The notes under the pieces were generated by a model. That model was not told where the DNA came from. It worked only from the letters and a program-made list of their open reading frames with translations, and did no database searches. Below are positions 2,941 to 44,167 of a stretch of DNA of 49,503 bases, one piece after another; the stretch's first letter is position 1; every line of letters begins with the position of its first letter. The position numbers and the translations under genes were made by a program. Source of the DNA: a virus. The stretch covers positions 1-49,503 of IMG/VR virus record IMGVR_UViG_3300027968_000004; one strand, given 5' to 3'.

Positions 2941-2941
2941 A

Positions 2942-5842
2942 TTACTCTTGCGCTAGCAAAGCTCCCCAGATGGAAAGCGTTAACAATTCATTTCTGGCTG
3001 CTTCAGCCGGAAAAGATAATTTAATTTGCAGGTGTCGACAAACAACAGCGTCGTTGCCTTGCAGCAAATAAAAACGATTGCTCATTATAGATTGACTTGG
3101 TGTCAATACTGGGGGGTCTGCAACATAATTATTAAGGGTTTCAAAATTACCATTTATCTCATCGAGAAGTACGCTGACAGTCGGAATGCTTCCAACCTGC
3201 TGCAATTCAGCTGTGATAGACGATATCTCTGCAAGTTGACCGGGCTGTGCCAAAACAACGCTTCCAACTGTCATGTAGGCCGAATAAGTGTTACCCAAAT
3301 CTGTAAAAGTGGTCATTGATCTGGCGGCAATTTGTCCATTGCTCATGCCTAACAATAGTTGGTGCTGCCCGGGCGATGTCTCAACGGATTGCATTGCAGT
3401 AAATCCGGCTGAAATAGTCGCTTTAGGACTCCACGCCGGACCGCCTTCAGGAGGCTGATTCCAATTGCAGCGAAACCAATTCTGAACTCCGTCCGCAATA
3501 TAAACAGCCTTTTCACTAGTTCCTGCAATAATTGCTGCCACATAAACTTTTGTAGGATCAAAGCTAGATTCTAATAAGTTACCGATAACAAAACCTGCTT
3601 CGTTAATTCCTGCACTGGACCATTGAATAAATTGACGATCAGCAGTATACAGAAAAATATTTGATCCTTGAATATCCAAAGCATTGTAAGAAAGCAGTCC
3701 CAGGCCAGGTGTATACGGCATAACGTAAAAGGTTGGAATGTTGGTACCAACAATTATATAAAGATCGCTTTGAGTAAAGACCAGTAATCCGTTGGCCGTG
3801 GGAACCAAGCGATTAACTTGTGTTGGAAAAACAAAATAATTGGCTGGAGGAAACGCTTCCGCGCCGTTGCCTAAGAGCGTGTCGGGTCCTCCTGAAAAAT
3901 ACACAATGTTTCCTACAACACCCCAAACCCGGCCAGCATGATAAGCGAATTTAGTTAGTCCGCTCGGAGGGGGATCATTTGCATGAGCAAGGGGTGCCTG
4001 CTGTGTAATATTCAGAGAAGTATCGTTTGCACTATCTGTGATAACCTGGCTCGTATTCGGATATGGCGAAGTAGGAAGATTGAAAAAAGTGGAGCCGCCG
4101 TCTGTTGTACGAAAAACCCAAATTTGATTGACCTGTGGATCGGTGCTCGCTGTTAAAGTAACATTGACTCCAGCCGAATTATTAAACGGGCCTGTTCCCG
4201 CGCTTGGTGGAGTTGCTGTACTTACGTGCCCACTGTTACTGTTACCATAAGCTACCACATATTGATAGCCGGACGTGGCACTAAAAGAACCGGAATTCGA
4301 GCTAACAGATACTGGGGGTCCGCCCGTGGCCCAGATCGTAACTTTAACTACATCAATGTACCAAGTAGCGACGGAATTGCTTGCTGTATTAAGCCCTTGA
4401 ATTCTTACACCGAAATTACTTGTACTTAAAGATGTAGCACTCCAATTTGCGCCCCAAAAATCGCCCTGTCCCCCTAAAGTGACATAACCATTGGAGCTCG
4501 GCAGTTGAATACCAATTCTTGTATTCCCTACTGGCACGCCTCCTTGAAGTAACTGTACATTAAGATAAGAACCGTTTGGGTTTGATGGTTGATAACCCTT
4601 AATTTGAACCTGAATACCTTGAATTGTAGTTTGTGTGGATAGGTTAAAATTAAAGCCGGTTGCTTGCAGGTAGTCAGTTTGATTGGCAGCGGGTACCTGG
4701 TAATAAACTGTTAACGTAAAACCGTTTACTGCCGCCGATGCTCCATTGCCGGGCGCTCCCGTACAATCACAGGAGAAGGACAAACCAAAAGCCGAAGAAT
4801 TTACTACGGCAGGGGTCAGGCTCGTACCGAGCCCCCAAAGATCGTTTGAACCACCATACGTTTGTGCGGTCAAAGTAGAGGGCCACGGCGAAGCATTATA
4901 TCTGTTTGCTGAGCCATTTACACCAACAAGCTGCACGACAGAATCATAAACCGCGCTGGTTCCGCCAGTCTGTTCACGGCTAACTGATGCCGCGACTCCT
5001 AATATTATCGCGTTGGCAGGAATGCTAAAACCAAAATTTGTAACAACGATGGAGGTCGAACTACCGCCCGCCGGCAAAGAAGTTGTAGCCGTGCTGGTTG
5101 TTCCTTCGACTGCCGTGACGTTGCCCCAAGAAGAGCCGCCGCCAATTTGTGTAGCTGATTTTGGTGCGTTTGGGCCAGTAGATGTTGAAGCAATGGAGCC
5201 TGCATTAGCAGAAGCATAAGTACCGTCTTCAGCTGTTATATTCCCGGGGCTAGACCATGCGGCGCCTCCTGTAACTGGAACATCGCTACCAGAAGAACAA
5301 ATATTTGGACCGGAAGCTCCAGAAAAATCACCAATAGAAATGCCCCATTTCCGAGTTGATCCTCCGTCAGTCCAAGCAACAAGATCGACGCCATCGCCCA
5401 TATAAAGGGTGTTGCCGACTCCTTGAAAGAAGCACTTCCCGGCGCCGTTTGCTTTATTTAAAATTACTGTGGCGGCTGTTGGGGTTACATTATAAACGGC
5501 ACTTGCAGTATCGACGATAACATCTATTGGGTTTGGAACATTTTTAATTTGTCGAAAAGAATAAAACCCTAAAATAGGTGTGGCTACCGTAGCCGTCGAA
5601 AAAAGGATCAATCCCGGTCGGCGGATCATGGTGCCATAATTAGTGAGCTCCATGTTTAGCCCATCGATCAACATATCCGTGCGGGAGCCCAAGAACCTTG
5701 CTTCGTATCGGCTAGTAGGCCCATTAAACGGACTGCGCTGTGTCCGCAAACCGGAAAAGAAAGTTTGCGTTGTGATGGGATAATAGTGCGTGGGCTTCTT
5801 GGGAGGAGCACCAACAACTTGTAGAATTCCAAGATCAGGCAT
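2942..5842 (-). CDS. Tail nozzle / stabilisation-like structural protein
   Basis: 966 residues. The N-terminus resembles podoviral nozzle or tail tubular B proteins: an N-terminal GLNMELTNYGTMIRRPG segment followed by a beta-propeller-like series (YNVT, LYMGDG, VYFSGGPD, LYIIVGTN, QFIQWSS). The middle (~180-560) is Ser/Thr/Gly-rich beta sandwich sequence that may be inserted decoration domains. The C-terminal 350 residues carry the propeller-like repeats. It lies between the adaptor pair and the fibre, matching the T7 order gp11-gp12-fibre. No Shine-Dalgarno is visible before ATG 5842 (upstream GTAAAAACAACGATTT), so coupling to the gene 12 bp upstream is likely. Assignment rests on N-terminal pattern, size and order. 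Confidence 0.6.
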   Translation of the reverse strand: MPDLGILQVVGAPPKKPTHYYPITTQTFFSGLRTQRSPFNGPTSRYEARFLGSRTDMLIDGLNMELTNYGTMIRRPGLILFSTATVATPILGFYSFRQIKNVPNPIDVIVDTASAVYNVTPTAATVILNKANGAGKCFFQGVGNTLYMGDGVDLVAWTDGGSTRKWGISIGDFSGASGPNICSSGSDVPVTGGAAWSSPGNITAEDGTYASANAGSIASTSTGPNAPKSATQIGGGSSWGNVTAVEGTTSTATTSLPAGGSSTSIVVTNFGFSIPANAIILGVAASVSREQTGGTSAVYDSVVQLVGVNGSANRYNASPWPSTLTAQTYGGSNDLWGLGTSLTPAVVNSSAFGLSFSCDCTGAPGNGASAAVNGFTLTVYYQVPAANQTDYLQATGFNFNLSTQTTIQGIQVQIKGYQPSNPNGSYLNVQLLQGGVPVGNTRIGIQLPSSNGYVTLGGQGDFWGANWSATSLSTSNFGVRIQGLNTASNSVATWYIDVVKVTIWATGGPPVSVSSNSGSFSATSGYQYVVAYGNSNSGHVSTATPPSAGTGPFNNSAGVNVTLTASTDPQVNQIWVFRTTDGGSTFFNLPTSPYPNTSQVITDSANDTSLNITQQAPLAHANDPPPSGLTKFAYHAGRVWGVVGNIVYFSGGPDTLLGNGAEAFPPANYFVFPTQVNRLVPTANGLLVFTQSDLYIIVGTNIPTFYVMPYTPGLGLLSYNALDIQGSNIFLYTADRQFIQWSSAGINEAGFVIGNLLESSFDPTKVYVAAIIAGTSEKAVYIADGVQNWFRCNWNQPPEGGPAWSPKATISAGFTAMQSVETSPGQHQLLLGMSNGQIAARSMTTFTDLGNTYSAYMTVGSVVLAQPGQLAEISSITAELQQVGSIPTVSVLLDEINGNFETLNNYVADPPVLTPSQSIMSNRFYLLQGNDAVVCRHLQIKLSFPAEAARNELLTLSIWGALLAQE

Positions 5843-5854
5843 AAATCGTTGTTT

Positions 5855-6892
5855 TTACCACGGGTAGCCGTAGTTGTAAGGATTGGAAGGCCCTAAAGGA
5901 AGCACCGTGCCAACGCCCGTGCCCACGACCGGGTTACTGGGATAGAATCCGTAATCTTCCCTCTCGCGGTCGCCAGAGCGAACGGCAGTTTGAAGGGCGG
6001 CCTGCCACATCTGAATGGCGGTCATGGACTCTCTGGAACCCGGAGCATTATGATCTTTACAAAGAGCCAGAAAGCCCTGACGGAAAAGATAAGCATAAGA
6101 ATCAGGGATCGGTGCAATTGTACTTTGCAAAGATGTGATTACCGGCGGTTTCATCTGATAGACAGGACAAATTTGCCAAGTAATTCCGGAAAGCGGAGGC
6201 ATGGGATAAAGACGAATCGCGATGCCGCGAGGATCGGCCACTGTCCACGTGACCGTTCCATCAGTAACCGTAGTACCGGGAGTTGCATTGGGGCCGGCAT
6301 CGGGTCCACTTCCTGTGGAAGCAGATGTACCGTATCCCGACACATAAAGATAGTTCCCGTGGGGATCAATAATTTGCTGAATAGGAGAATTAGAGGGGAA
6401 TTGTTGCTGTGCGCCGGTAGGTCCTACCCCGCTCATATAAACCTGGTTGGGGAGCCAGGTTCCGTAGCGGGCGAGAGGAATAGGAATCCAAGAAAGTTGA
6501 AAAGGAGTGGCTTGGATAAAAGTCGGGTCTAATTCACGAACAGCCTCGAGCGGAAACTCTGGCTTCGGAATTGCTGTATTATTAATGTCGATGCGCGTTC
6601 CTTTTTCCAGCCAACCAAGATCGAGTACCGGTGTATTGGGCGGCCCTGATAAAGGAGAAACGCCGATATAATCCTGCTGAAAAGGAACCGTTGTAAAAGG
6701 CCTAATATAAGCACGGTTAAATTTCCAGGCAAGACTTTCTGCTAGGAACAGCTGCAAGACATCATTAGCAATTGAAACAGCCGGTTCTTGGGAAAAGCCA
6801 GAAGCGCCCAAGACAGGAACTAATTCAGCAAACGATCTTGCATAACGTACAGCATCTTGAATAGTGTAAGTTGAATTGGATAAAGTGGCCAT
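5855..6892 (-). CDS. Head-tail adaptor, T7 gp11-like (long paralogue)
   Basis: 345 residues, clearly related to the next upstream gene. Shared blocks are QEPAVSIANDVLQL...AWKFNR near the N-terminus and IAPIPDSYAYLFRQGFLA near the C-terminus. Between them is an extra insert (~145-215) with the phage tail motif of the type GTWLPNQVY...DPHGNYLYVSGYG...DGTVTWTVAD, a small beta domain often spliced into tail proteins. The likely role is a ring connecting portal and nozzle. The gap to the upstream gene is 8 bp and there is no Shine-Dalgarno. The C-terminus is rich in Pro, Gly and Tyr. Confidence 0.6.
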   Translation of the reverse strand: MATLSNSTYTIQDAVRYARSFAELVPVLGASGFSQEPAVSIANDVLQLFLAESLAWKFNRAYIRPFTTVPFQQDYIGVSPLSGPPNTPVLDLGWLEKGTRIDINNTAIPKPEFPLEAVRELDPTFIQATPFQLSWIPIPLARYGTWLPNQVYMSGVGPTGAQQQFPSNSPIQQIIDPHGNYLYVSGYGTSASTGSGPDAGPNATPGTTVTDGTVTWTVADPRGIAIRLYPMPPLSGITWQICPVYQMKPPVITSLQSTIAPIPDSYAYLFRQGFLALCKDHNAPGSRESMTAIQMWQAALQTAVRSGDREREDYGFYPSNPVVGTGVGTVLPLGPSNPYNYGYPW

Positions 6893-6900
6893 GATAGATT

Positions 6901-7629
6901 TTATTTCTGATTAATTATTCCGGCAGGATTAATGGGGCCGCCGACAGAGCGAAGTTGTCGTTGAGTGATAATTTGCCGCTCAAGGAAAATATTCTTTTCA
7001 TCTTCTGTTAATCCTTCAGAAACCGCAATGAGCTGACGGAAGAATAAATCAATAGCAAAAGCAAATTTTTCATCTCCTCTTTGTTCATAAGCCTTGGCCA
7101 GAAAACCCTGATTATAAATTGAATTCATATAATCTGGGATTGGTGCCCAAGTATCTGTCACTTGAGAAAAAACCGGAGGCGCATTTTGATAAACTAAATT
7201 GAGCGTATAAGTGGTATCGGGATTGGGAAACACACGGAAAGTGATGTTGCCGTTGCCATCGTCATTTTGAACGGCTATGTAAACAGGCTCATTTTGTGTC
7301 GAATCTAAAGTAAGCGTCCCGCGAATTTCCAATTCTTTATTAAACCCGGTACTGGTATTGTTAATCGTAGCTGTTTCTAGCCAGCCAAACGTAGGGAGCG
7401 CTATACTATAATCCTGCGCGGTACTATTGATTGATGTGGAAGCAGTAGAACGATTCCATCTCCAAGCAAAGGGTGGCGACAAAATCGCCTGCCTTACCCA
7501 GTCACCGATACTTAATGCCGGCTCATTGGGATAAGAACTATTTGCTCCAACGCCAGTTAATGGGCGAAGCTGATTGAAGGCTTGGGCAAAAGCAATGGAA
7601 CGTGCGAGTTGAATAGTTGAATTAGACAT
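6901..7629 (-). CDS. Head-tail adaptor, T7 gp11-like (short paralogue)
   Basis: 242 residues. It contains NEPALSIGDWVRQAILSPPFAWRWNR (quoted in parts: NEPALSIGDW, AWRWNR) and WAPIPDYMNSIYNQGFLAK, followed by a helical segment ending in a basic tail. This is the layout of T7-like tail tubular protein A adaptors, at about the usual length. It is the first gene after a terminator-like hairpin, and the T-rich run TTTTTTATTTTT sits directly before its ATG in place of a ribosome-binding site. The paired copy downstream suggests duplication and specialisation. Confidence 0.6.
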   Translation of the reverse strand: MSNSTIQLARSIAFAQAFNQLRPLTGVGANSSYPNEPALSIGDWVRQAILSPPFAWRWNRSTASTSINSTAQDYSIALPTFGWLETATINNTSTGFNKELEIRGTLTLDSTQNEPVYIAVQNDDGNGNITFRVFPNPDTTYTLNLVYQNAPPVFSQVTDTWAPIPDYMNSIYNQGFLAKAYEQRGDEKFAFAIDLFFRQLIAVSEGLTEDEKNIFLERQIITQRQLRSVGGPINPAGIINQK

Positions 7630-7630
7630 A

Positions 7631-7693
7631 AAAATAAAAAAGAGGTCTTACAAATGGGATGAAATCAAACTTCAAACCACCTGCGAAGACCTC
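7631..7693 (-). terminator. Terminator-like hairpin before the tail genes
   Basis: Read on the minus strand, GAGGTCTT (7693-7686) pairs perfectly with AAGACCTC (7649-7642). The second arm runs directly into TTTTTTATTTTT. The loop is long (36 nt), so termination may be partial. It separates the exordium-like gene from the tail operon. Confidence 0.5.
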
Positions 7694-7734
7694 AATCCGG
7701 AGTTCTCGCAAACTTTAAAGCAAATATTTAAACT

Positions 7735-8601
7735 TCAAAGTCCCAGCGCGCTCAAATTATTGGAAAAGAAATGCCACACCTGAGTCCAGAAATTTGCATG
7801 GTAACTAAAAATGCTGGCACTAAGAGAATAAGCCGGGAGCGGCGAAGGATTTTCACTTTGGCAATAAGGCTGCCCCTGCTCGTCGTGGCGTTTGGAATAC
7901 GTTTTTTGCACATTCCATGTTCGCCCGTTGACTTGTAAAGAAGCATTCCCGCCATTGCACAAATCTCCGTTCTCGCCAAATCCCGGGATTGTCCAGGCAT
8001 CAAGCCGTGGATCGGTGAGCATTTCTGCCAATTCGTGAGAAATAACTTGGGTGATTCTATCTAGCTGCTTTTGAGCAAGATGCAAGGAGCAAGCTAAATC
8101 AGAAGGACAACTTTCTTTCAAACAATCGTCCGTTAGAGCAGGAACAACAGCATAATCAAAACGATGGAACAAATGATAAAAGTAATCGTGAAAACCAAAA
8201 GCATTTGCCCCATTCTTTTCACAAACAACGGTGCTGCCGTCCTGCGTTCCAATCCCGGGAGCCAAGAGCAGCAAAAAGCAATTTGCTTCGGTGTCTGTTT
8301 TTGCTGCATCACGAACCGTATTCCAAATATCTTTTATTGTTAAATTTCCCGGCTGAGCATTAACCTGTTTTGTTGAAGCCACAACAAGGCTTTTTACACC
8401 ATATTGAGAAAGGATGTTCATGAATTTGCTCTGACCGAGATCAGAAACAAATTGTGTAATTTCCTTCTCAAATGGATGCTGCCCAACAAAAATGAGCCCC
8501 ACTTTAGCGTTTGCTATAATCGGACCCCCGTGATATTTAAATTCTGGGGAAAACACAGGGCTCGCCTTTGCAGCAGGAACACCCCTTTGCTTGCTCGCCA
8601 T
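7735..8601 (-). CDS. Exordium/PHI-1-like protein with HELAE motif
   Basis: 288 residues. The segment ISHELAEMLTDPRLDAW followed by a Cys-containing GDLCNGG stretch resembles the plant Exordium / phosphate-induced protein 1 family and its bacterial relatives, which carry HELAE plus DP...W. HExxE could bind a metal as in a metalloprotease, but catalysis is not established for this family. The N-terminal half has alternating strands and helices (KVGLIFVGQHPF, FLLLLAPGIGTQDG). Seven or so cysteines suggest disulphides, although no signal peptide is seen. The gene has an AAAGGAG site 6 bp before ATG. It sits between structural and tail genes, so virion association is possible. Confidence 0.5.
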   Translation of the reverse strand: MASKQRGVPAAKASPVFSPEFKYHGGPIIANAKVGLIFVGQHPFEKEITQFVSDLGQSKFMNILSQYGVKSLVVASTKQVNAQPGNLTIKDIWNTVRDAAKTDTEANCFLLLLAPGIGTQDGSTVVCEKNGANAFGFHDYFYHLFHRFDYAVVPALTDDCLKESCPSDLACSLHLAQKQLDRITQVISHELAEMLTDPRLDAWTIPGFGENGDLCNGGNASLQVNGRTWNVQKTYSKRHDEQGQPYCQSENPSPLPAYSLSASIFSYHANFWTQVWHFFSNNLSALGL

Positions 8602-8624
8602 ATTTCGCTCCTTTTAGAATTTAT

Positions 8625-9137
8625 TTAGGAACGGCCTGCTTCGATTGCGGCCACAGGATCACGGAAGAATCTTCGACCGGCAGCGGATATCCGGTTTCCG
8701 GATTTCTTCGACATCCATTCCATATAATCTGGGTCGTTACTACGCCAGATACGTCCACAATTAGTGCAGATTCCAATTTGTTCGCCCGTATCTAGATAAT
8801 GATGAACAATCGATGTGAGGCCGTGCGGACTGGGGAAATCAGAAAGTTCGTGAGAGCCTTGCAGGTGCTGACACCGAGCCTGGTCTCGTTTAAGGCTTTC
8901 CTCGAGACGCCTGCGCTGTTCGCGCATTTGCTCGCGCATCAATTCTTCATTTTTTACTTTATTGGGATCGACATACGGCTTGCGCGATTCGATAATGGCG
9001 TCGGCCAGCATCTTAAACGTCTCGATGTTGCCCTGAGCAGCCGCTTCCGTGGCTTTGGTAACAGCAGCCGTAACTGCTGAATTAATCAAAGCCTGTAAGT
9101 CTTTTGCACTTAAGGTAAGATTTTTTTCTTCTGCCAT
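8625..9137 (-). CDS. Zinc-binding coiled-coil protein
   Basis: 170 residues, starting at ATG 9137 because AAGGAG lies 6 bp upstream; an upstream in-frame ATG at 9173 has no such site. The N-terminal half is a long helix (LQALINSAVTAAVTKATEAA then EELMREQMREQRRRLEESL). The C-terminal part has a C-x2-H...H and CTNCGRIW pattern, likely one zinc site. I do not recognise the family. The late-operon position suggests a structural or assembly role. Confidence 0.7.
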   Translation of the reverse strand: MAEEKNLTLSAKDLQALINSAVTAAVTKATEAAAQGNIETFKMLADAIIESRKPYVDPNKVKNEELMREQMREQRRRLEESLKRDQARCQHLQGSHELSDFPSPHGLTSIVHHYLDTGEQIGICTNCGRIWRSNDPDYMEWMSKKSGNRISAAGRRFFRDPVAAIEAGRS

Positions 9138-9185
9138 ATTGTTCTCCTTGCCTCTGAATCCACAGAAGGCCAATGGTATTTGATT

Positions 9186-9896
9186 TTATTCGTGCCCGTT
9201 TCTAAAAACAAACAGGCTTCGACGATAAACAACCGAACCGGGCCCATCAGTGACCCGGCCAAAATATTTATTCACTTTCTCTTCGGTGGTGATCCGAGCT
9301 TTAATTAATCTTAGCAGCGGCGTCCGCCACCCCCTAACGCGCTCTTTTATTGGAATATCTCGAATCGGATCGAATTCATAAACACTGAATTCCGGCATAT
9401 AACCGGTAGGAATGTACCACAAATATTCAAAAGTTTTGCCATCAAGCCGAGGTTGCGGCTGCCCATATACACGGTAAACTGCTAAGTCGCCAATAATTCG
9501 TCCATCCGTAATATATAACTCGGATGGCAGCATCTTCTTGAGGCGATAAAGAAATTCAGAGTGGTGTAGATGATTGACCCAGCGGGGACCATCGTCCATA
9601 TAATCAAGCTGGTGCTTCCATCGCTGAGCCTTTGTTCGTTCGTCGTAATAATTCAATTCGGTCAGGCGGGCGATGTGCTCTGAAGTTGAAAGGCGAGGAA
9701 CCATCTCACACTCATAGCACTGATCGCGTACGCCTTCGCGATAAGAAGAGTCGCGGCGAAACTGACCATATGGCTTAATTTTCCCGCAGCTCAGGCACTC
9801 TTTCCAAACGACCTTAGTATTCGTTTGGTCGAGTACTTCTGCTGTAACGGGCGCTCCGCCGTGTCTAAGAATTTCATCAACACCAGGAAAGTGCAT
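9186..9896 (-). CDS. Unknown protein with HNH-associated-type zinc finger
   Basis: 236 residues. Residues ~34-64 have CLSCGKIKPYGQF followed by CYEC, the Cys4 finger often found at the N-terminus of small phage HNH or regulatory proteins. The remainder is rich in Tyr, Arg and Trp with no HNH motif, so nuclease function is not supported. It follows the small structural gene in the same direction with a 59-bp gap. Confidence 0.7.
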   Translation of the reverse strand: MHFPGVDEILRHGGAPVTAEVLDQTNTKVVWKECLSCGKIKPYGQFRRDSSYREGVRDQCYECEMVPRLSTSEHIARLTELNYYDERTKAQRWKHQLDYMDDGPRWVNHLHHSEFLYRLKKMLPSELYITDGRIIGDLAVYRVYGQPQPRLDGKTFEYLWYIPTGYMPEFSVYEFDPIRDIPIKERVRGWRTPLLRLIKARITTEEKVNKYFGRVTDGPGSVVYRRSLFVFRNGHE

Positions 9897-9955
9897 ACTC
9901 TACTATTCTCCGGAGTATCACAGATTATTTATTACTTCTCTCAGATAAGGCGGAA

Positions 9956-10384
9956 TTACATAGCCTCGAGACGAACATGCGCGGAATAGTTCATTGCTGT
10001 AGTGCCCGATGAGGCGTAACCTGTAGTCGAAACATTGACGTTCGTACCCGGCTTAGCGTTGATTGCAGCCGAAGAAGAAGCCAGCGTTGTTAGGCTGTTT
10101 CCAGTACTGGTCGGCGTTAAAGTCAGTGACATGGCGTTACCAGTATCGGCATCTGTATAACTAATAACAATTGAGGGCAGCGTCGAGGAAGTTGTAGCCG
10201 CCTGTGTTACTGTAGCAATTCCGCTAACACAGTAGAGATTTCCTGGCGCATTGGCCGGCACGGCATAGAGAAGCGTGGAAGCAATATTAGCAGCCTGCCC
10301 CGTTGCATCGAACGTTGCCAGGGTTAAAAAATTAGCATCTGCCACTTTATCGTTGGCAGAAAAGAGGCTTCGTAAAAAACCCAT
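9956..10384 (-). CDS. Small Ala/Ser/Thr-rich structural protein, possible capsid decoration
   Basis: 142 residues, beta-rich and low in charge, rich in Ala, Ser and Thr, with repeated TLTPTSTG and SGTTAMNYS-type turns. Composition and size are like decoration or minor virion proteins. An AGGAG site precedes the ATG and a TTGACA/TATAAG promoter candidate lies just upstream, suggesting a highly expressed, separately transcribed product. The family is not recognised. Confidence 0.65.
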   Translation of the reverse strand: MGFLRSLFSANDKVADANFLTLATFDATGQAANIASTLLYAVPANAPGNLYCVSGIATVTQAATTSSTLPSIVISYTDADTGNAMSLTLTPTSTGNSLTTLASSSAAINAKPGTNVNVSTTGYASSGTTAMNYSAHVRLEAM

Positions 10385-10414
10385 AATATTTTCTCCTGTT
10401 ACTTATTTGTCGTT

Positions 10415-10441
10415 CTTATATAGAACAACGGTTGTTGTCAA
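10415..10441 (-). promoter_or_regulatory. Sigma70-like promoter candidate
   Basis: On the minus strand, TTGACA (10441-10436) is followed after 15 bp by TATAAG (10420-10415). The spacing is short. A GTTCT-TATAT-AGAAC dyad overlaps the -10 region and could be a hairpin or an operator. It faces the small structural gene starting at 10384. Confidence 0.4.
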
Positions 10442-10478
10442 GCAGTGCCTATACATGCAGGCACGTCCATTTTCCGGA

Positions 10479-11114
10479 TCACGAAACAACAAAAGCTTTG
10501 TCCTCATTATTTATATCTGGCTTAAAAATTGGTCTTGCATCAAGCTTGCCATTCTCAATAAAAATACCAATAATACCGCCGGGTTTTACTAATACTTTTT
10601 CTGGCTGTTCTGGATGGAGCACGAACCCGACTTCTCGTATAATGCTTGAGTGTGCTTCTAATAGAGGAGGGCGACCGGTCGTTATGCCTAATTTAATGGC
10701 GTCTCGAAGGAGAGGACGAACACGGTTACGAAAATTATTCAACGACTCTCCTCCCGGAAAAGGTACATCTGGATTTTCAACGTGTTCCAAAACGATACGC
10801 CCGGTTTCAGGTGTTTTCTTTTTACCGCCCAGATCACCAACATTTAAAGGCGCCAAGGCATCATTATAGACAACATGATACTTTGGCGTTGTTTCTTGAA
10901 TGATTTTGGCTGTATGCCGTGCTCGCTTTTTAGGCGAGCAAAAAATAACCGGATACAGATCATAATCTGTTAAAAAAGCAGCCTGCTGGTGGGCAACATG
11001 GATTCCTGCTTGATCTAAATCAACGTCCAATGGACCGCGAAAGCAACAAGCTTGATTGAGGGTCGTTGTACCGTGGCGTCCAACAAGACAAACAAGTTGT
11101 GAATTAGTAGACAT
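10479..11114 (-). CDS. Histidine phosphatase (phosphoglycerate mutase-like)
   Basis: 211 residues with all expected core residues. These are the RHG triad at residues 13-15, an Arg in SPKKRARHTA, GGES with a conserved Glu in the middle, and a second His in EAHSS. RG...DVDLDQAG is also typical. The family removes phosphate from small molecules or phosphoproteins through a phosphohistidine intermediate. The substrate here is unknown. A full-length enzyme within the head genes is unusual. Possible jobs are nucleotide or sugar-phosphate metabolism, or reversal of host signalling. The gap to the upstream gene is 5 bp, so the two are probably co-translated. Confidence 0.8.
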   Translation of the reverse strand: MSTNSQLVCLVGRHGTTTLNQACCFRGPLDVDLDQAGIHVAHQQAAFLTDYDLYPVIFCSPKKRARHTAKIIQETTPKYHVVYNDALAPLNVGDLGGKKKTPETGRIVLEHVENPDVPFPGGESLNNFRNRVRPLLRDAIKLGITTGRPPLLEAHSSIIREVGFVLHPEQPEKVLVKPGGIIGIFIENGKLDARPIFKPDINNEDKAFVVS

Positions 11115-11119
11115 TAAGT

Positions 11120-11458
<339 letters not shown>

Positions 11459-11461
11459 AAT

Positions 11462-11746
11462 TTACCATTTCCAGCCGCAAACACAGATAAGGACTTCCCA
11501 TAAGTGACGTTTATATAGTGCACGAGCACATTGCGGGCAAAATCGGCGCCACGACACAGGAAGTCCCCTTCGATAAAATACGACAAGCACGCCAGGTGGC
11601 AGCCAGGTGGCTTGAAGGTGGATGGTCCGCCTGCCAACGGGTCCACGGGCGTCCGCTACTTTCAACCTCCAAAAACAGTTCCAGAGGCCCTGGCCGAGGT
11701 TCTGGGCACCATTTTGTAAGTCGAAATAACGGACAGGCAGGAGCAA
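11462..11746 (-). CDS. Possible small zinc-ribbon protein (uncertain)
   Basis: A 94-codon open frame that could start at TTG 11746, directly after a TGA, or at a later alternative codon. There is no good ribosome-binding site at TTG; GGAGG abuts a later TTG. Its end reads FCPQCARALYKRH then ICVCGW, a credible CxxC...CxC zinc ribbon, and its stop lies 3 bp before the next gene. The rest is Trp/Arg/Leu-rich and unconvincing. It could instead be a decayed gene or a chance frame. Confidence 0.3.
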   Translation of the reverse strand: MLLPVRYFDLQNGAQNLGQGLWNCFWRLKVADARGPVGRRTIHLQATWLPPGVLVVFYRRGLPVSWRRFCPQCARALYKRHLWEVLICVCGWKW

Positions 11747-12059: not shown

Positions 12060-12883
12060 TTACGAGCTGCTGGTCATAGACTGCAGCCGTCGCAGCGTCA
12101 TTACGGAACCGGGACGTAGGGTGTTCGTGTACTTTACGTTATAGCTCACCCAGCCCCCGATCTGCCTTGCCGGATCAGCCACAGACCCCTGAGCAGGAGC
12201 CTCCTGGATCATGAGCCGGTAGTTCTTCTCACCAGTCTTGGGGTTCTTCCCAAGGAAGACAGAGAAGATGGCGTCATCAGCAAACAGATACGTATTGTAA
12301 TACGTATTGCTGTTGATCGTAACCGTCGGCGTAGTCGTGGTTTGCTTGAAACGGGCACCACCAAACACAATCGTTTCCTCGTTGCTAACGGGAGCAAAGA
12401 GTTTATCGACCGTGCTTTCGTTCCGCTTCAGGATATCCGTCAGACCGTTGTTGCTCGTATCATTGAGCACATCATGCACAACGAACGGGTGGATGATTCC
12501 GCCCATATAGCCATCCGGGGTTAGCGGCCGGGCATTGACGCCGGCAAGCTGCTGAATAGCCGTGCGGATGTTGTTGGCCGACAGGAAGCTTCCCGGAGCC
12601 AGAGTGATCGTAACAGAGCTATCGACGCCTTGGGCGCTGTCTGCGGTAATCTGAACCAAGGAGTTCAGAGTTAGAGCCAACCGGTAGTTCAATTCCACCG
12701 ACAGGTTCTGAAGCAACCCGGGGTCGTCAATTGCCACGTCCATTGCCAGGTCGGAGCTGTTGATAAAATCAGCATACTGGCCGATGGTTGCCGTGATTTT
12801 CGTGGATGATTCAGCGATGGGCGAACCCACCGTACCTTCTGCCGCCTGGGTAGTATTGCCAGAGAGCAGAGCATAAGTATAGA
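12060..12883 (-). CDS. Major capsid protein, exon 2 (N4-gp56-like)
   Basis: This frame continues into an upstream stretch with no proper start; the only initiator is a TTG at 12899 inside the intron. The sequence (YTYALLSGNTTQAAEGTVG, then GGIIHPFVVHDVLND, NEETIVFGGARFK) matches the N4-gp56 family of HK97-fold capsid proteins but lacks the family's N-terminus. That missing N-terminus is found at 13840-14002. Splicing T13840 to T12883 gives 987 nt, that is 328 residues, with the junction reading SGNQIQ-F-YTYALL. The scaffold gene lies directly upstream and a terminator downstream, as expected for the most abundant virion protein. The 3' splice position is inferred; G12887 is an in-frame alternative last intron base. 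Confidence 0.8.
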
Positions 12884-13839
12884 CGACGTGTTTAGGCAAC
12901 TAACGTTCCCGTTAGTGCGCGCTCATGATCGCTCATGAGTCCAGACTGTATCTTTGCTCTTTTGTCTTTAGCCGCCTTCATCTGTTGGTAAAAATCTTCT
13001 CTTATTTCGGGCGTTGGTTTATTGTGCCTTACATAATTTAGAAGTATTTTACCTTCGTCTCGTTTAACGATTAAATATGGCAAGAGAGCAAGCAGGTATT
13101 TTTCAATGTCCTGCTTTTTGCTAATATACCAGACAAAAGCGGGCTTGCCTTTTTTATTTTTTAAAGGCGATATTGAGCCGCCAAACTTATTTTTTGCCAA
13201 TTCTAGCAATGGCATAAAAGTATTAGTAATTCCGATCCGAACGTTGTAGGCCGGTCCTCGACTTATTACTAAATAACCCTCGCCATCTAAAATTGCCGCC
13301 AAATATGCTTGTAACGGCTTACCAACAAGAGCACCCGGCGTTTCAGTCGTTACGCAGCTGGATTTCTTCGCTTCTCTTAACTTGACGAAAAGTTCGTCTC
13401 TCTTAACAGGATTTATTTGTCCGTCAAGATTTAAATATTCTAAAAGAATATTTGCTTGTTGACGCTTTTCAATTAAGTATGGCGAAATCGAAGTCAAGAA
13501 AAAACCGACACTTTTTCTACCATATAGTCGCCAATGGTATAGTGGCTTACTTAAATAGCCTCCATTCATGGCTGCCTTTTGGTAATTTATTGTGCCCCCG
13601 AAATGGTTAACAGCCCATTGCATTAGAGCCTTTGATCCATTTGTAAAGCCTACAAACGGCCGATAATTCACATAATTGGATTTAAACGTCTTGAAGATGG
13701 AAAAGCACCCTTCACCATCCATTAGTCCGGCCATGTAAGCTTTGGTTTTTTCTCTCATCCAGTTTGCTCGGTGTTGTCTGTTCTTGTGATAGAACAGAGT
13801 TCCACCGATTTAGTCGGGTTTTAATTCAGCACTATATTT
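12884..13839 (-). ncRNA. Group I intron interrupting the major capsid gene
   Basis: 5' side: exon end ATTCAG-U (13846-13840) pairs with GCUGAAU (13830-13824), which places the obligatory U-G wobble exactly at the exon end (P1). P4-P5 fits the family: CGGUG/CACCG (13807-13803/13773-13769) encloses an 8-bp stem UCUGUUCU/AGAACAGA with GAAC and CAA joining strands, close to the conserved P and Q elements. 3' side: two hairpins with GNRA loops (12922-12939 and 12899-12916) and an AAGAUACAGUC stretch like the S element. Exon 2 CUAUA (12882-12878) can pair with UAUAG in the guide loop (P10), and the last intron base would be G12884. P3, P6 and P7 are not resolved by eye because most of the core overlaps the endonuclease frame. 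Confidence 0.75.
12892..13758 (-). CDS. LAGLIDADG homing endonuclease (intron-encoded)
   Basis: 288 residues with two LAGLIDADG motifs, YMAGLMDGEGCF (residues 8-19) and YLAAILDGEGYL (about residues 152-163). It is therefore a monomeric two-domain enzyme with acidic residues DGEG in each active site. It would cut intron-less capsid alleles and spread the intron. There is no Shine-Dalgarno before the ATG, which fits the weak expression usual for such genes. The frame ends 8 bp before the proposed 3' splice site, so its last ~20 codons also form the intron's 3' hairpins. An intein is excluded by the stop codon straight after exon 1 and by the separate frame. Confidence 0.9.
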   Translation of the reverse strand: MREKTKAYMAGLMDGEGCFSIFKTFKSNYVNYRPFVGFTNGSKALMQWAVNHFGGTINYQKAAMNGGYLSKPLYHWRLYGRKSVGFFLTSISPYLIEKRQQANILLEYLNLDGQINPVKRDELFVKLREAKKSSCVTTETPGALVGKPLQAYLAAILDGEGYLVISRGPAYNVRIGITNTFMPLLELAKNKFGGSISPLKNKKGKPAFVWYISKKQDIEKYLLALLPYLIVKRDEGKILLNYVRHNKPTPEIREDFYQQMKAAKDKRAKIQSGLMSDHERALTGTLVA

Positions 13840-14002
13840 ACTGAATCTGATTACCACTGCGGAGAGGCAGCGGCTTCTGTTTGGTCATCGAAAGGAAGGG
13901 CGTTTGCGCCTTCAAGTTCGGGACCGCCTGGCGCTCGTAGTAGATAGCCACGAGGTTCGGCAAGGCTCCCGATGTGAGAATACTAGCAGGAGAATAGGCC
14001 AT
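13840..14002 (-). CDS. Major capsid protein, exon 1
   Basis: ATG 14002 with an AAGGAGG site 8 bp upstream opens a 54-codon frame, beginning MAYSPASILTSGALPNLVAI and ending KPLPLRSGNQIQ, then TAA inside the intron. The ending is the N-terminal signature of N4-gp56 capsids (LP.RSG followed by hydrophobic residues). The exon ends one base into codon 55 (T13840). The good ribosome-binding site and the position just after the scaffold gene show that this is the real start of the capsid gene. Confidence 0.8.
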
Positions 14003-25590: not shown

Positions 25591-25655
25591 AAGACAAATT
25601 AAGGCAAGTCAAGACAAACCAAGACAAATTAAGACAAATTAAGACAAATTAAGAC
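25591..25655. repeat. Ten-bp tandem repeat (AAGACAAATT)
   Basis: Six full units plus a partial one; four units are exact and two diverged. They lie in the 260-bp gap after the Panacea gene and reach into its stop codon. The rest of the gap (25386-25590) is AT-rich with a small GGCCTC/GAGGCC hairpin at 25560-25574 and no gene. Confidence 0.85.
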
Positions 25656-26236
25656 TTGCTGCCAAAGAAAGAATCGAAGGCCGCTATTTCGGCAAGCTCG
25701 GCATCGATTGCCGAAATCTCTTCTGAAGACTTGCCTCCGGCTATTAAAATATTCCTATAATCCATGTTTGAAGACGAATAAGGCAGGGCAAAGCATTCGG
25801 GGAGTTTCCGCGAAAAAGCAACTAATTCTTCCTGGCTCTTGTCTCCGTGCTCGTAAACAATTTTCTGAATTAATTGCTCTTCGGCCATAGAAAGCTCCCC
25901 CCGGCCCGGGAGCCCAATCAGCCACACCGCGTCTTCGTTGGAAAGAATAAATTTCTTCCAAAACACTCCAAGTACTTCTTTTTCAAGTACTTCTTTTTCA
26001 GGTGCTTCTTTTTCATCGGAGCACAGGTTCAATAAAGCAGAAATGTGCCTTACGGCAGGCCCGCTGCTGGTCAGGATATAGCTATCCGTCGTAATGGGGC
26101 GGCCCCATCGTAAAAGGGCTTCTCGATCTATCAGATAGAGCAGCTTAACCAGCTTCTGGGGGCGGGTATCCTCGCCCAGAAGTCGGAGTACGGCGCTAGC
26201 GGTTTGGGTTGCTTTAATCTCGTTAAATCTTAACAT
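25649..26236 (-). CDS. Panacea-domain (SocA/GepA-like) protein
   Basis: 195 residues from ATG 26236 (GGAG 9 bp upstream); a frame from 26266 would overlap the previous gene. The core reads KLVKLLYLIDREALLRWGRPITTDSY followed by SSGPAVRHI, the Panacea (formerly DUF4065) signature. Such proteins neutralise diverse toxins or act as proteolysis adaptors. No toxin is obvious beside it: the only partner is the 58-residue zinc-ribbon protein upstream. It is the second gene of the late operon. It may act as an anti-toxin against host abortive infection or stabilise the prophage. Confidence 0.8.
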   Translation of the reverse strand: MLRFNEIKATQTASAVLRLLGEDTRPQKLVKLLYLIDREALLRWGRPITTDSYILTSSGPAVRHISALLNLCSDEKEAPEKEVLEKEVLGVFWKKFILSNEDAVWLIGLPGRGELSMAEEQLIQKIVYEHGDKSQEELVAFSRKLPECFALPYSSSNMDYRNILIAGGKSSEEISAIDAELAEIAAFDSFFGSKS

Positions 26237-26243
26237 GTGTTGT

Positions 26244-26420
26244 TCACTCCAATGATTTTTTACCACAATGATGGCAGACGGTTTTATCGGCTGTACAACC
26301 CACCCACTTCTTGCAGGTTGAGCACCACTTGCGGACCGACGGTGGTTTAGTCGAAGGCAACTCTGACCCCAGGGCAGCGCCGGGATTTTGATTTCGTTTC
26401 TTAGGCTTTGATGATCGCAT
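26244..26420 (-). CDS. Zinc-ribbon small protein
   Basis: 58 residues from ATG 26420 (GAGGGG upstream). The basic, Pro-rich N-terminus (RSSKPKKRNQNP) is followed by CSTCKKWVGC and CHHCGKK, one Cys4-type zinc ribbon. It is the first gene of the long minus-strand operon and ends 7 bp before the Panacea start. It could be a DNA-binding regulator or the partner or toxin of the Panacea protein. Confidence 0.6.
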   Translation of the reverse strand: MRSSKPKKRNQNPGAALGSELPSTKPPSVRKWCSTCKKWVGCTADKTVCHHCGKKSLE

Positions 26421-26489
26421 CGGACCCCTCTTCAATTTTACCACAGAAACAACGGCTAAAAGGCAGAAAAGAAAGAAAAAGGGGGTGCT

Positions 26490-26836: not shown

Positions 26837-26903
26837 ATACCGAGCAAATTTTAATCGCATATGTGTCTACTTACCTGTACGCGAGCCTATGTGCGCGTCC
26901 GCC

Positions 26904-26940
26904 CGTGTACGCGTGCGCGTGCGCGCGTATGCGCGTATAT
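26904..26940. other. Alternating purine-pyrimidine tract
   Basis: 37 bp alternate strictly between pyrimidine and purine, mostly CG and TG steps with a TATAT end. Such tracts readily adopt Z-DNA under negative supercoiling and melt at the TA-rich end. Confidence 0.7.
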
Positions 26941-26960
26941 CCCGCCGTCACACCCGCTCC

Positions 26961-27160
26961 GACGTACCGGCGCCTCGCCCTACTGACGCACCGGCGCACC
27001 GGAGCATCGGCACGTCGGCACGTCGGCACGTCGGCACGTCGGCGCATCGGCACGTCGGCACGTCGGCACGCCAACGCAGCAACACATCGACGCACCGGCG
27101 CACCGGCGCATCGGAGCACCGGAGCACCGGAGCACCGGAGCACCGGAGCATCGACATACC
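26961..27160. repeat. Array of 25 eight-bp repeats
   Basis: Unbroken 8-bp periodicity. The commonest units are GGCACGTC (runs of four and two) and GGAGCACC (run of four), with related GGCGCAYC and GACGCACC units. Because 8 is not a multiple of 3, long open frames on both strands here are by-products of the repeat. A replication-origin iteron array is a plausible use. Confidence 0.85.
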
Positions 27161-27182
27161 GGTGTCCCAATACGTTCCCGTT

Positions 27183-28094: not shown

Positions 28095-28285
28095 CTCCGT
28101 TCGGCATCAGCGGGGCGCCCGCTGATGTCCGCCTCGTGGTACGGGGCGGGCATGAGGGGGCGCCTTTATGCCCTTCTTGTGCGGGGCGCAGCAGTGTGTC
28201 CCGCCAAGACGAATAATCAATCTCCCGCGCCCGTGCGGTTTCTTGGAGCCGTGCGGACGCGGCAGTGTCTCCATTTGCTAGACTT

Positions 28286-28330
28286 GCGCTGCGTTGCATT
28301 GCGCTGCGTTGCATTGCGCTGCGTTGCATT
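28286..28330. repeat. Three perfect 15-bp tandem repeats
   Basis: GCGCTGCGTTGCATT repeated three times without change, at the 5' side of the second structured region. Confidence 0.9.
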
Positions 28331-28357
28331 GCGCGGCGCTAGTCTGCAGGAGCACTG

Positions 28358-28393: not shown

Positions 28394-28880
28394 GCCCTGT
28401 GTTTCGAGGATACCCTGCCAACTACCTCGCCTTTTGACCCACCTCGAAACCCTCCCCCCAACGAAAGTTGGGGTATCCTCAAAGCGCAGGGCGTTGCCGA
28501 GCGTTGCTGTGGGCCTTGCTGGGCCTTCTAGGGCTTACTAGCAAGGCTTGACTTGCGGGGCGTGTGCAAATATACTTACCGCGCCTCATGCCGGACGCTC
28601 ATCAGGCGTTTGCTTGCTGAGTGTCCAGCTTGGGACACGGTTCCACACTCCTACCGGTCTCGACGTGGGAGCCGCAGCAATCGCGGTAAGTCTTTGATTG
28701 CGCGGCGCTTAGACCACGCCTGCCGCTGTGGGCGGCGGGAGATTCGGAGCGACAAGCCTCCGGTAGGGTGCAAACAGGCGTGCGCCCAAGCTTGGGGAGT
28801 CCGAGGCTTGCCGTCGCCAAAGCCCGCAGATAGCGAATGTCCTCTCCTAGCCGATCCTAGCCAATAGCATCGGCTAGCAA
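28394..28880 (+). ncRNA. Candidate large structured RNA 2
   Basis: About 490 bp without a gene but dense in long helices. (a) A 20-bp stem with two single-base offsets, 28394-28414 with 28472-28492, holding a CCCAAC-GAAA-GTTGGG hairpin. (b) GCCTTGCT/AGCAAGGC, 28513/28540. (c) A 9-bp long-range stem CTTACCGCG/CGCGGTAAG (28575/28682) enclosing GGACGCTCA/TGAGTGTCC and GTGTCC/GGACAC. (d) CAAGCCTC/GAGGCTTG (28753/28803). (e) CTAGCCGAT/ATCGGCTAG (28847/28869). A GTAAAATTTAC site precedes it at 28378. Plus-strand transcription is assumed from flanking genes. No tRNA, tmRNA or RNase P signature is seen. Confidence 0.6.
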
Positions 28881-29015: not shown

Positions 29016-29240
29016 ATGCACACAGTAGAGTCTTTTGGGTGCGATTGTTTTGGCAATTGCACCGGCTGGCAAGTGATACGGGGCAGGCAGGTGCTCGCCC
29101 AATTCGTGGCGAGCGTCTATGAGCCTCAAGCACGCGAGGACGCTCGCCGCGCGGCGTTTGCCCTTGCTGCACGCCTTAACGCAGCAGAGGATTCCGCTCG
29201 TCGAGCAAAGGACGTGATTCAGCACGTCCTTGCAGACTAA
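29016..29240 (+). CDS. Small early protein
   Basis: 74 residues from ATG 29016 (GGAGG 6 bp upstream). The N-terminus has three Cys (FGCDCFGNC) followed by TGWQVIRGRQVLAQF, then a long Ala/Arg-rich helix (ARRAAFALAARLNAAEDSARRAK). It may bind metal or nucleic acid. It begins a run of closely spaced early genes and lies 14 bp before the Csx16-like gene. Confidence 0.7.
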   Translation: MHTVESFGCDCFGNCTGWQVIRGRQVLAQFVASVYEPQAREDARRAAFALAARLNAAEDSARRAKDVIQHVLAD

Positions 29241-29254
29241 TACGGAGGAAAAAA

Positions 29255-29623
29255 ATGGAAAAAATCGTGGTAACAAGGCACGCCGCTCTCGTAGAATTCC
29301 TACGAGAGATTGGCCTAATCTCAGAGGATACGCCAATTATCTCGCACGCCAGAGTGGAGGACGTGCGAGGCAAGCATGTCATTGGTGTGCTGCCCTTGGC
29401 GCTGGCCGTTGAAGCACGGACAGTAACAGAAGTGCCCTTGCATATCCCGCAGGAATTGCGGGGCAAAGAATTAAGCCTCGACGAGGTGCGCATGTATGCC
29501 GGAGCACCGGTACGGTATACCGTATACCGCACCGAAGAACTCTTGGACGTTGTAGCGTCCGAGAGTGCCTATCTAACTGGCGCCTCAATTGCGCACATGG
29601 ATGAAGAGCTAGAGCAATTTTAA
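29255..29623 (+). CDS. Csx16-like (VVA1548 family) protein, possible anti-CRISPR ring nuclease
   Basis: 122 residues. The pattern VTRHAALVEFLREIGLI...VRGKHVIGVLPLALAVEA...VPLHIPQELRGKELSLDEV follows the Csx16/VVA1548 family: a TRH near the N-terminus, a GxxVIGxLP strand-turn and a P.ELRGKEL block. Csx16 is found beside type III CRISPR systems and is linked to breakdown of cyclic oligoadenylate signals. No CRISPR array or cas gene is in the window, so a phage copy could blunt type III immunity. Recognised from memory of the family pattern, not by search. Strong GGAGG site. Confidence 0.6.
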   Translation: MEKIVVTRHAALVEFLREIGLISEDTPIISHARVEDVRGKHVIGVLPLALAVEARTVTEVPLHIPQELRGKELSLDEVRMYAGAPVRYTVYRTEELLDVVASESAYLTGASIAHMDEELEQF

Positions 29624-29640: not shown

Positions 29641-29964
29641 ATGAAAATGAAAAAGAGAACGTATATGCGGGAGTTGAAGAAATTTAAAACTCCCGATGGT
29701 CGAAAGGCTTTGAATTTTATGCTGCGGGTGCGGCTCGCCCGCTTCGTGGCGGATAATTTCTCATTCGACGAGGCGGAACGCCTCGTTAAGTACTTGGATG
29801 AGAATAAAATAGCACATTGTCTCCATCACGTAGACACACACTACTGTGGTACGTGCTACCACAGCGAAGATATATATGAATTAAGCCTGCCGACAGGTAA
29901 GCTGTTTATTCACTATGACAACTCCGGCAGCACGCCGGAGTTTCGATTCACGCCAGCAAGCTAG
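29641..29964 (+). CDS. Small early protein with His/Cys cluster
   Basis: 107 residues. A basic N-terminus and helix (ALNFMLRVRLARFVADNFSFDEAERLVKYLDENK) are followed by HCLHHVDTHYCGTCYH, a potential metal site, and an acidic strand-rich end. GGAGG lies 6 bp upstream. Family unknown. The early anti-defence-like neighbourhood suggests a host-interaction role. Confidence 0.7.
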   Translation: MKMKKRTYMRELKKFKTPDGRKALNFMLRVRLARFVADNFSFDEAERLVKYLDENKIAHCLHHVDTHYCGTCYHSEDIYELSLPTGKLFIHYDNSGSTPEFRFTPAS

Positions 29965-29972
29965 GAGGAACA

Positions 29973-30188
29973 ATGAAGAGAGCATATGAGTTATACGATG
30001 AAAAAACAAGACGGGCGACCCCCGTCATAGACTTAACAGACGAGGAAGCCAGGAGGCTCAATGAAGCCCTTCTTGCCACAGGCTCGTCGAAGTACTTAAT
30101 TGCCAAAGAAGACCGAAAAGGGTTTTACTCTGGCCTCACGCGTTCCGAACTGGATCGCACGGGAACGTGTGAAACGGATTGGTACTAA
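29973..30188 (+). CDS. Small early protein
   Basis: 71 residues (RAYELYDEKTRRATPVIDLTDEEARRLNEALLATGSSKYLIAKEDRKGF), with a strand, a helix and a short end rich in Thr and Asp. AGGAGG lies 6 bp upstream. It ends just before a hairpin-rich gap. No family recognised. Confidence 0.65.
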   Translation: MKRAYELYDEKTRRATPVIDLTDEEARRLNEALLATGSSKYLIAKEDRKGFYSGLTRSELDRTGTCETDWY

Positions 30189-32933: not shown

Positions 32934-33143
32934 ATGAATAGATATTTACCAAAGTGCGTCACGGTCTTTTGGGACAATGGCCGCTATGTTGCTGTCCATT
33001 GGGAAACCAGTGCACGGTGCAAACATACGTTATCCGGCGACCGAGCCCATGATTCCAAGCCCTGCAATCGAGCAATTGGGCACGGCGCTACTCGCGGTGA
33101 AGCTATCCGAAAAGCACGCAAATATTTTAATCTTACTGAATAG
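32934..33143 (+). CDS. Small early protein, paralogue A
   Basis: 69 residues, beginning RYLPKCVTVFWDNGRYVAVHWETS, nearly identical in its first 25 residues to the gene at 38864. Then comes a variable Cys/His-containing loop (CKHTLSGDRAHDSKPCNRAIGHG) and a basic helix. Strand-strand-loop-helix layout. GGAGG upstream. Duplicated within the same operon about 5.9 kb apart. Function unknown. Confidence 0.75.
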   Translation: MNRYLPKCVTVFWDNGRYVAVHWETSARCKHTLSGDRAHDSKPCNRAIGHGATRGEAIRKARKYFNLTE

Positions 33144-38863: not shown

Positions 38864-39088
38864 ATGAGCAGGTATTTGCCAAAATGCGTCACCGTTTTCT
38901 GGGACAACGGCCGTTACGTGGCCGTCCATTGGGAAACCAGCAGAATCTGCAAGCACGTGACCGATGACTTGAAACCCTCTAATCTAGTCATCGGACAGGG
39001 GAATACACGTACGGAAGCCATTAGAGATGCACGTGACTATTTTGATTTTGATGCTCGTTTAGAGCGCACAAAGGAGGAAACAAAATGA
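38864..39088 (+). CDS. Small early protein, paralogue B
   Basis: 74 residues, with RYLPKCVTVFWDNGRYVAVHWETS identical to the 32934 gene, then divergence with loss of the second Cys pair, and an acidic Lys-rich tail (RLERTKEETK). GGAGG upstream. Its stop overlaps the lipoprotein start (ATGA). Confidence 0.75.
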   Translation: MSRYLPKCVTVFWDNGRYVAVHWETSRICKHVTDDLKPSNLVIGQGNTRTEAIRDARDYFDFDARLERTKEETK

Positions 39089-42604: not shown

Positions 42605-44167
42605 ATGAGCCTAAGCTACGATGTTTCCAATACACCAAACGCCGGGCGTCTTATAGAATCTCTCCGTTACCTCGGCTACGGCAACTATGAGGCCTTGGCC
42701 GACATTATCGATAACTCCATTGATGCCGGAGCGCACCACATCAGCATCCGCATTGCTTCCCGTCAAGGCGAAATAGAAATTACGATTGCAGACGATGGTT
42801 GCGGCATGGATCGAGAAACCCTAGACCAAGCCATGCGCCTGGGTTCGCTGACCGAGCGCTCCATCGAGGCCGATCTAGGCAAGTTCGGAATGGGATTAGT
42901 AACCGCCAGTCTCTCAATGGCGCGCCACTGCCACGTAATCACCCGCAGCGCCCGGGGTGAGCTTTGGTCGAGCGCTTGGGACGTGGATCATATTGTACGA
43001 ACCAACACTTTTTCTAAGCACCTGGATCGTGCAACAACTGCTGAGCGCAAACTCTTCCGCGAGTTACTGCCCAAAGCGAAAAGCGGCACGATCATCCGGC
43101 TCACAAAAGTAGACAACCTCAGCAATCGAAATACAACAGTATTCGCTGCAACCTTGTCTGAACACCTGGGCCGGGTACACCGTTATTTCATTAAAGAGGG
43201 AGTTCAAATCAACATCAATGACAAGCCCGTCAACGTCATCGACCCCCTCCAGTTAGACGACAAGGGCACGCAAATTGTTGTGGACGATACTATTTCCTTT
43301 CGTCTAGACGGGCAAGAACACCCCATCCGAATCCGAGTAGTCCTTCTCCCCGACGAACCTCTGCACGCTTTGGACGTGGCTAAGTCTATGAAAGCCCAGG
43401 GCTTTTATGTGCTACGAAATAAACGGGAAATCGCCAATGCCGTAACCCTTGGCTTCTTCACAAAACACCCCGACTTTAACCGAATGCGCGGCGAGATATT
43501 CTTTACCGGGGCGCTGGATCGCCAGATGGGGATTGAATTTACCAAACGCCAAGTCAATCTGAGTGAAGAGCTATCTGAAGAGCTGGGCAAGATTTTAATT
43601 CCGACCTGCCGTACCATAAAGCGGGGGGAATCGACACGAAGAATCGAGGCCGATACTGCCGCTAAGGAACAACATACTCGCGCGGCCAAAGCCATAGCCG
43701 AAAAATCCAAAGTGCTGCTGCGCCCGCAGCCGGCCCCGCCGACAGAGGCCGAAGAAAGAGAAAAAGAAAGACAAAGAGAAAAAAGCGGCGCCGGAAGTGA
43801 AGCACAACCCGCAGCAAAAAGTCAAAAAGCGACCCTTCGGGAACGAGAGGCGGCCATAGCCGGTGCGGAAAAACAGCAAACCACCATAGAGTTCCGGGAA
43901 GAACATCTAGGCCCCACGGGGCAGCTCTATGAAGCGGACCTGCAGGGAAGAAAAGTTGTTGTCCGCTATAACATTGAACATCCCGCCTATGCTCGGCTGG
44001 TGTCTGAAAATCTTGATTCACCCCGGCTGGTGAGTGCCATTGATTTCTTGCTTTATTCAATGGCCGCTGCCGAGTTACGGGTGGGGGCGGAGTCAGAAAC
44101 CGCCAATGAAACGTTGGCGAATTTCAAAGGAGTAATGTCCGCCAACCTACGGACATTACTTAGTTAA
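42605..44167 (+). CDS. MORC/Hsp90-type GHKL ATPase
   Basis: 520 residues. The ATP-binding Bergerat fold is complete: ADIIDNSIDAG with Asn37 (N box), IADDGCGM with Asp63 (G1 box), and LGKFGMGL at 91-98 (G2 box and ATP lid). A transducer-like domain follows with GTIIRLTKVD and a conserved-type basic FTKRQ. Residues ~345-440 are charged coiled coil or linker (EEREKERQREKS). The C-terminal ~80 residues form a separate domain (RKVVVRYNIEHPAYARL). Prokaryotic relatives occur with restriction-like and chromatin-like systems. In a phage it may act in DNA packaging, replication or counter-defence. Confidence 0.8.
   Translation: MSLSYDVSNTPNAGRLIESLRYLGYGNYEALADIIDNSIDAGAHHISIRIASRQGEIEITIADDGCGMDRETLDQAMRLGSLTERSIEADLGKFGMGLVTASLSMARHCHVITRSARGELWSSAWDVDHIVRTNTFSKHLDRATTAERKLFRELLPKAKSGTIIRLTKVDNLSNRNTTVFAATLSEHLGRVHRYFIKEGVQININDKPVNVIDPLQLDDKGTQIVVDDTISFRLDGQEHPIRIRVVLLPDEPLHALDVAKSMKAQGFYVLRNKREIANAVTLGFFTKHPDFNRMRGEIFFTGALDRQMGIEFTKRQVNLSEELSEELGKILIPTCRTIKRGESTRRIEADTAAKEQHTRAAKAIAEKSKVLLRPQPAPPTEAEEREKERQREKSGAGSEAQPAAKSQKATLREREAAIAGAEKQQTTIEFREEHLGPTGQLYEADLQGRKVVVRYNIEHPAYARLVSENLDSPRLVSAIDFLLYSMAAAELRVGAESETANETLANFKGVMSANLRTLLS

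Follow-up and report, generated by a model that had tools for sequence, protein, structure and literature searches.

The virus contig analysed here carries a small Csx16-like gene, and its product is likely to be a ring nuclease that cleaves cyclic tetra-adenylate (cA4) and would act as a type III anti-CRISPR. On balance, we also favor the view that a large anti-CRISPR family of mobile elements, not yet named, arose from Csx16. This family would occur in diverse tailed phages (including contigs of more than 250 kb) and in plasmids, would be distinct from the cas-linked Csx16 and nearly missing from curated phage databases, and would be the third well-populated family of viral ring nucleases beside AcrIII-1 and AcrIII-2.

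Csx16 has been seen in phages before: the survey of Hoikkala et al. (PMC12409355) lists it for 2 of 28,114 phage genomes. The new parts are the 63 further viral relatives and the separate phage/plasmid clade described below, while the record in print rests on two genomes. The size and the separateness of the mobile-element clade were not found in the literature searched.

Csx16-like gene and family assignment

The window, meaning the whole stretch of 49,503 nucleotides of the IMG/VR record IMGVR_UViG_3300027968_000004, contains the Csx16-like gene as an intact ORF with an ATG start and 122 codons (Table 1). PF09652 (Cas_VVA1548/Csx16) was the sole Pfam-A family identified in the protein, with 62.9 bits (E=3.4e-17) against a curated cut-off of 25 bits, and protein residues 5-88 were aligned with positions 2-88 of the 91 profile positions. 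A chance reading frame was ruled out as explanation of the ORF by this match. The first-pass annotation had named three blocks of the Csx16/VVA1548 type, and all of them (TRH at residues 7-9, VIGVLP at 42-47 and ELRGKEL at 67-73) occur in the protein, within the part aligned to the PF09652 profile. The conserved R/H, GxLP and RGxEL residues of the family were all found in the window protein, namely R8, H9, G44, L46, P47, R69, G70, E72 and L73.

Table 1. Csx16-like gene, its motifs and the adjacent genes in the window.
Feature	Position	Strand	Evidence
Upstream gene in the run (74 aa), without a Pfam family	29016..29240	+	Sequence, with GCGGAGG site
14-nt gap with ribosome-binding site ACGGAGG, 5' of the Csx16-like gene	29241..29254	+	Sequence
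Csx16-like gene, 122 aa	29255..29623	+	Pfam 62.9 bits, E 3.4e-17; AlphaFold2 pLDDT 90.7
TRH motif codons, T7-R8-H9	29273..29281	+	R8 and H9 invariant in 62/62 phage homologues
VIGVLP motif codons, V42-I43-G44-V45-L46-P47	29378..29395	+	G44 and P47 invariant in all compared rows
ELRGKEL motif codons, E67-L68-R69-G70-K71-E72-L73	29453..29473	+	R69 in 61/61 ungapped phage homologues
Downstream gene (107 aa), without a Pfam family	29641..29964	+	No viral-contig relative found
Next downstream gene (71 aa)	29973..30188	+	Sequence

The Csx16 profile search proposed with the first reading gave a strong match, that to PF09652. The NCBI equivalog model of Csx16, TIGR02620, gave 18.2 bits to the window protein, below its cut-off of 46.35 bits. 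On the same model the cas-linked controls (n=3) scored 87-113 bits, the orphan plasmid copies 25 to 59 bits and the methanogen-virus copies 45 bits. The window protein is thus a member of the family in its broad sense, outside the cas-linked core. We therefore refine the first reading: by its sequence, the protein is a member of a divergent mobile-element subfamily and not the cas-linked Csx16 equivalog. Searches of the 122-aa protein against PHROGs and against the PDB sequences revealed no family and no match, respectively.

Genomic context

The window, itself an IMG/VR virus record, encodes an SU10-type portal, a large terminase, a family A DNA polymerase and a tyrosine integrase. It is a tailed phage, and this phage is probably temperate and incomplete. 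It appears incomplete because another contig (L050), which is 98.6-99.9% identical over window positions 1-28423, extends to the left and runs 16.8 kb past the left end of the window. In L050, a minus-strand ORF of 3401 aa (1449-11654) perhaps encodes a giant virion protein.

The Csx16-like gene lies within a plus-strand run of small genes, which are separated by gaps of 14, 17 and 8 nt. The run has the direction opposite to the portal and terminase genes, and is on the same side as the DNA polymerase gene. The first-pass annotation had placed the gene in an early operon; the closely spaced plus-strand run (gaps of 8-17 nt) and its position make an early operon a reasonable reading.

RAMP proteins (PF03787), the Cas10 palm domain (PF22335) and a CRISPR-like repeat array were all sought in the window, and none was found. 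So the gene is not surrounded by a type III CRISPR locus, which agrees with the stand-alone gene described at first reading. A type III locus borne by a provirus was also ruled out, since the window is without RAMP or Cas10.

GC-rich tandem repeats are present at window positions 26891-27162 (8/24-nt units) and 28284-28338 (15-nt units), separating the minus-strand and plus-strand gene blocks. The near-identical contig described above, which is without Csx16, ends its match to the window at 28423, right after these repeats. This contig was considered as a presence/absence test and was rejected, because the match stops before the gene.

Several other genes of the window are worth recording. A LAGLIDADG endonuclease ORF (12892-13758, minus strand; PF00961, E 3.3e-6) is flanked on the same strand by two ORFs, one short (13838-14002) and the other longer (12060-12899). 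These two read as though a single virion protein had been cut in two by an intron or intein; an Rfam intron match was sought at 12060-14002 and was not found. A protein with the SocA/Panacea antitoxin domain (PF13274, E 9.8e-12) is encoded at 25649-26266 on the minus strand, adjoined by a small cysteine-rich ORF (26244-26444). Two paralogous small proteins (RYLPKCVTVFWDNGRYVAVHWETS...), which belong to no Pfam family, are encoded in the same plus-strand region at 32934-33143 and 38864-39088. Directly after the integrase gene, there is a plus-strand gene (42605-44167) for a GHKL-type ATPase (PF13589 HATPase_c_3, E 2.2e-26), which is unusual cargo for a phage.

Relatives in viral contigs

Csx16 queries were run in six viral-contig scans and turned up a Csx16-like gene in 63 further distinct IMG/VR virus contigs of 4 to 321 kb. 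There are thus at least 63 viral relatives besides the window, or 64 records in all, many of these contigs being fragments. Two of the contigs are large, with 261 and 321 kb. A large terminase was identified in 39 of the 64 records, and the other 25 had no match to the terminase families tried. The relatives are spread over many unrelated phages. No RAMP was detected in any of the 64 records including the window, with positive controls detected in the same search, and the Cas10 palm domain was absent from all 30 records tested.

Comparison of the neighborhoods of 28 viral loci, the window and five plasmid loci revealed no constant neighbor gene. No other gene family was common to more than four of the compared loci, so the Csx16-like gene seems to function and to spread by itself. 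No recurrent defense or cas system was found in the neighbor scans, which gave replication genes and singletons only, and some of the viral copies are embedded among phage replication genes.

Among 50,697 curated phage records, matches were obtained only in the methanogen viruses Drs3 (two records) and PhiF3, which presumably correspond to the two genomes listed in PMC12409355. Curated phage collections lack the lineage in which the 64 viral contigs carry the gene, which suggests that uncultured phages commonly target type III signalling. Pattern scans of genome contigs gave no matches; the same scans missed the plasmid copy of Deinococcus proteolyticus, which does fit the pattern, so this absence is uninformative.

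Most of the proteins are about 100 aa long and show good conservation, which makes the claim directly testable with cA4 cleavage and plasmid-challenge assays that are already established.

Plasmid copies

Orphan csx16 copies were found on plasmids of Deinococcus, Allomeiothermus, Paenibacillus and an uncultured archaeon, and no cas genes were annotated within the stretches read. On a plasmid of Allomeiothermus silvanus (L042, 5989-6774), a tandem Csx16-Csx16 protein of 261 aa has two PF09652 stretches and 122.8 bits, and its gene adjoins a conjugation gene. Csx16 was modelled as a dimer (PMC12409355), and together with this model the tandem fusion supports a dimeric active unit. Another gene of this Allomeiothermus silvanus plasmid (L003, 5998-8013) encodes a 671-aa protein with a Csx16 domain at its N-terminus, followed by an apparent degenerate second copy, which was recognized by eye below the Pfam threshold.

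Phylogeny and conservation

In the maximum-likelihood tree, the window protein groups with nearly all of the phage copies and with those on the Deinococcus and Allomeiothermus plasmids, in a clade of 59 rows with support 99/96. The four cas-linked Csx16s fall outside this phage/plasmid clade, and a smaller tree also places them outside. Its resolution is limited: the tree is built on about 100 columns with long branches, few cellular rows and only four cas-linked Csx16s, and for the larger tree the bootstrap had not converged. About 68 cas-linked Csx16 loci are known from complete genomes.

Residues R8, H9, G44 and P47 were unchanged in 62 of 62 phage sequences; H9, G44 and P47 also show no variation among the cas-linked, plasmid and archaeal-virus proteins. 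R69 was kept in each of the 61 phage sequences that are ungapped at that site. Comparison of the profile of the phage set with that of cas-linked Csx16 gave a probability of 98.9% and E 1.4e-17, with the motifs in register. The dN/dS of about 0.16-0.18, obtained from the single usable close pair of phage genes, indicates purifying selection.

Predicted structure

The AlphaFold2 monomer model is confident (mean pLDDT 90.7) and shows a Rossmann-like alternation of strands and helices, with a C-terminal helix predicted at residues 93-113. When the model was compared by Foldseek with the PDB and with viral models, there was no match at E 0.001. VIA-align rows included CARF proteins and ring nucleases (Cam1, Sis0455, Cad1, Sso2081, Csx1-Crn2) with Z of at most 3.9, values that are too low to stand alone and that are mixed with rows of unrelated Rossmann folds. 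A weak DALI match of Csx16 to a Crn2 homologue was also published (PMC12409355), and the weak rows of the predicted model fit with this match, although they are no proof alone.

Proposed function and alternative explanations

One Csx16, tested as a purified protein, breaks cA4 down into linear products and leaves cA3 and cA6 uncut (PMC12409355). Because the window protein has the same motifs as the cas-linked Csx16, it is expected to cleave cA4 made by the host, and cA4 rather than cA6 is the expected substrate since the tested Csx16 did not cleave cA6. In the proposed mechanism, the Cas10 of a host type III system would make cA4 during infection. The Csx16-like gene would be expressed after infection, and its product, probably a homodimer, would bind cA4 and cut it to linear products, with H9 together with R8, R69 and the GxLP loop as candidate catalytic residues. 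The removal of cA4 would keep the cA4-activated effectors of the Csx1, Can and Cam types off. We infer the dimerization, the catalysis by these residues, the timing of expression and the protection of the phage. The stand-alone phage copy is probably a counter-defense gene, and the anti-type III interpretation of the first-pass annotation is supported, with the anti-CRISPR role itself a putative one.

The conservation of the pocket cannot tell binding from catalysis, so a protein that binds cA4 tightly, cleaves it very slowly or not at all, and sequesters it like Csx15 and the anti-CBASS sponges has to be weighed. Csx15, from a neighboring family, acts mostly as a sponge and can still relieve type III immunity if over-expressed (PMC13148439), but its authors hold that sponging is ill-suited to type III signalling. 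The tested Csx16 fully degraded a 100-fold excess of cA4 (PMC12409355), and R8 and H9 are invariant in the phage set, and both points speak against the sponge, which we regard as unlikely. Slightly less likely again is a shift of the mobile-element clade to another cyclic oligoadenylate, a CBASS signal or a linear oligoadenylate, by which its target would be something other than cA4-signalling type III CRISPR. The clade scores below the TIGR02620 cut-off and branches away from the cas-linked proteins, and Crn4 shows that ring nucleases vary in range (PMC12830947); against this, the pocket motifs are identical to those of cas-linked Csx16.

Another explanation concerns the beneficiary of the gene. 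Cellular Csx16 is thought to play a reset role in type III loci, and the contig has a tyrosine integrase, so the gene on a temperate phage or plasmid might dampen the type III autoimmunity of the lysogen rather than serve as an anti-CRISPR in lytic growth. However, copies are also present in contigs of 261 and 321 kb, and some are found amid phage replication genes, and we consider this explanation unlikely, the least probable of the three. Cleavage of cA4 as a type III anti-CRISPR is the reading that we prefer.

Comparison with known systems

Viral ring nucleases already known include AcrIII-1, AcrIII-2 and the phage Crn4b (PMC12830947, PMC12751052). AcrIII-1 (DUF1874/Crn2) and AcrIII-2 (viral SAVED) destroy cA4 (PMC12409355, PMC12751052), which is the same role as that proposed for the window protein, but they are protein families different from Csx16. 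The AcrIII-1/Crn2 family (PF08960, DUF1874) was absent from the window and from the 29 other records tested.

Cas-linked Csx16 (TIGR02620/PF09652) shares with the window protein the PF09652 domain and the S/T-R-H, GxLP and RGxEL motifs. In contrast, the window protein is without cas linkage, scores below the TIGR02620 cut-off, lies on a separate branch and has a C-terminal helix. The methanogen viruses Drs3 and PhiF3 are tailed viruses too, and their PF09652 gene likewise stands alone in the genome, but they are archaeal viruses, and their proteins are on other branches of the tree and reach 45 bits on TIGR02620 against 18 for the window protein. The orphan Csx16s of Deinococcus proteolyticus and Allomeiothermus silvanus differ from the window protein in being carried on plasmids, one as a tandem double-domain protein and another as a 671-aa protein, and they fall together with it in one supported clade.
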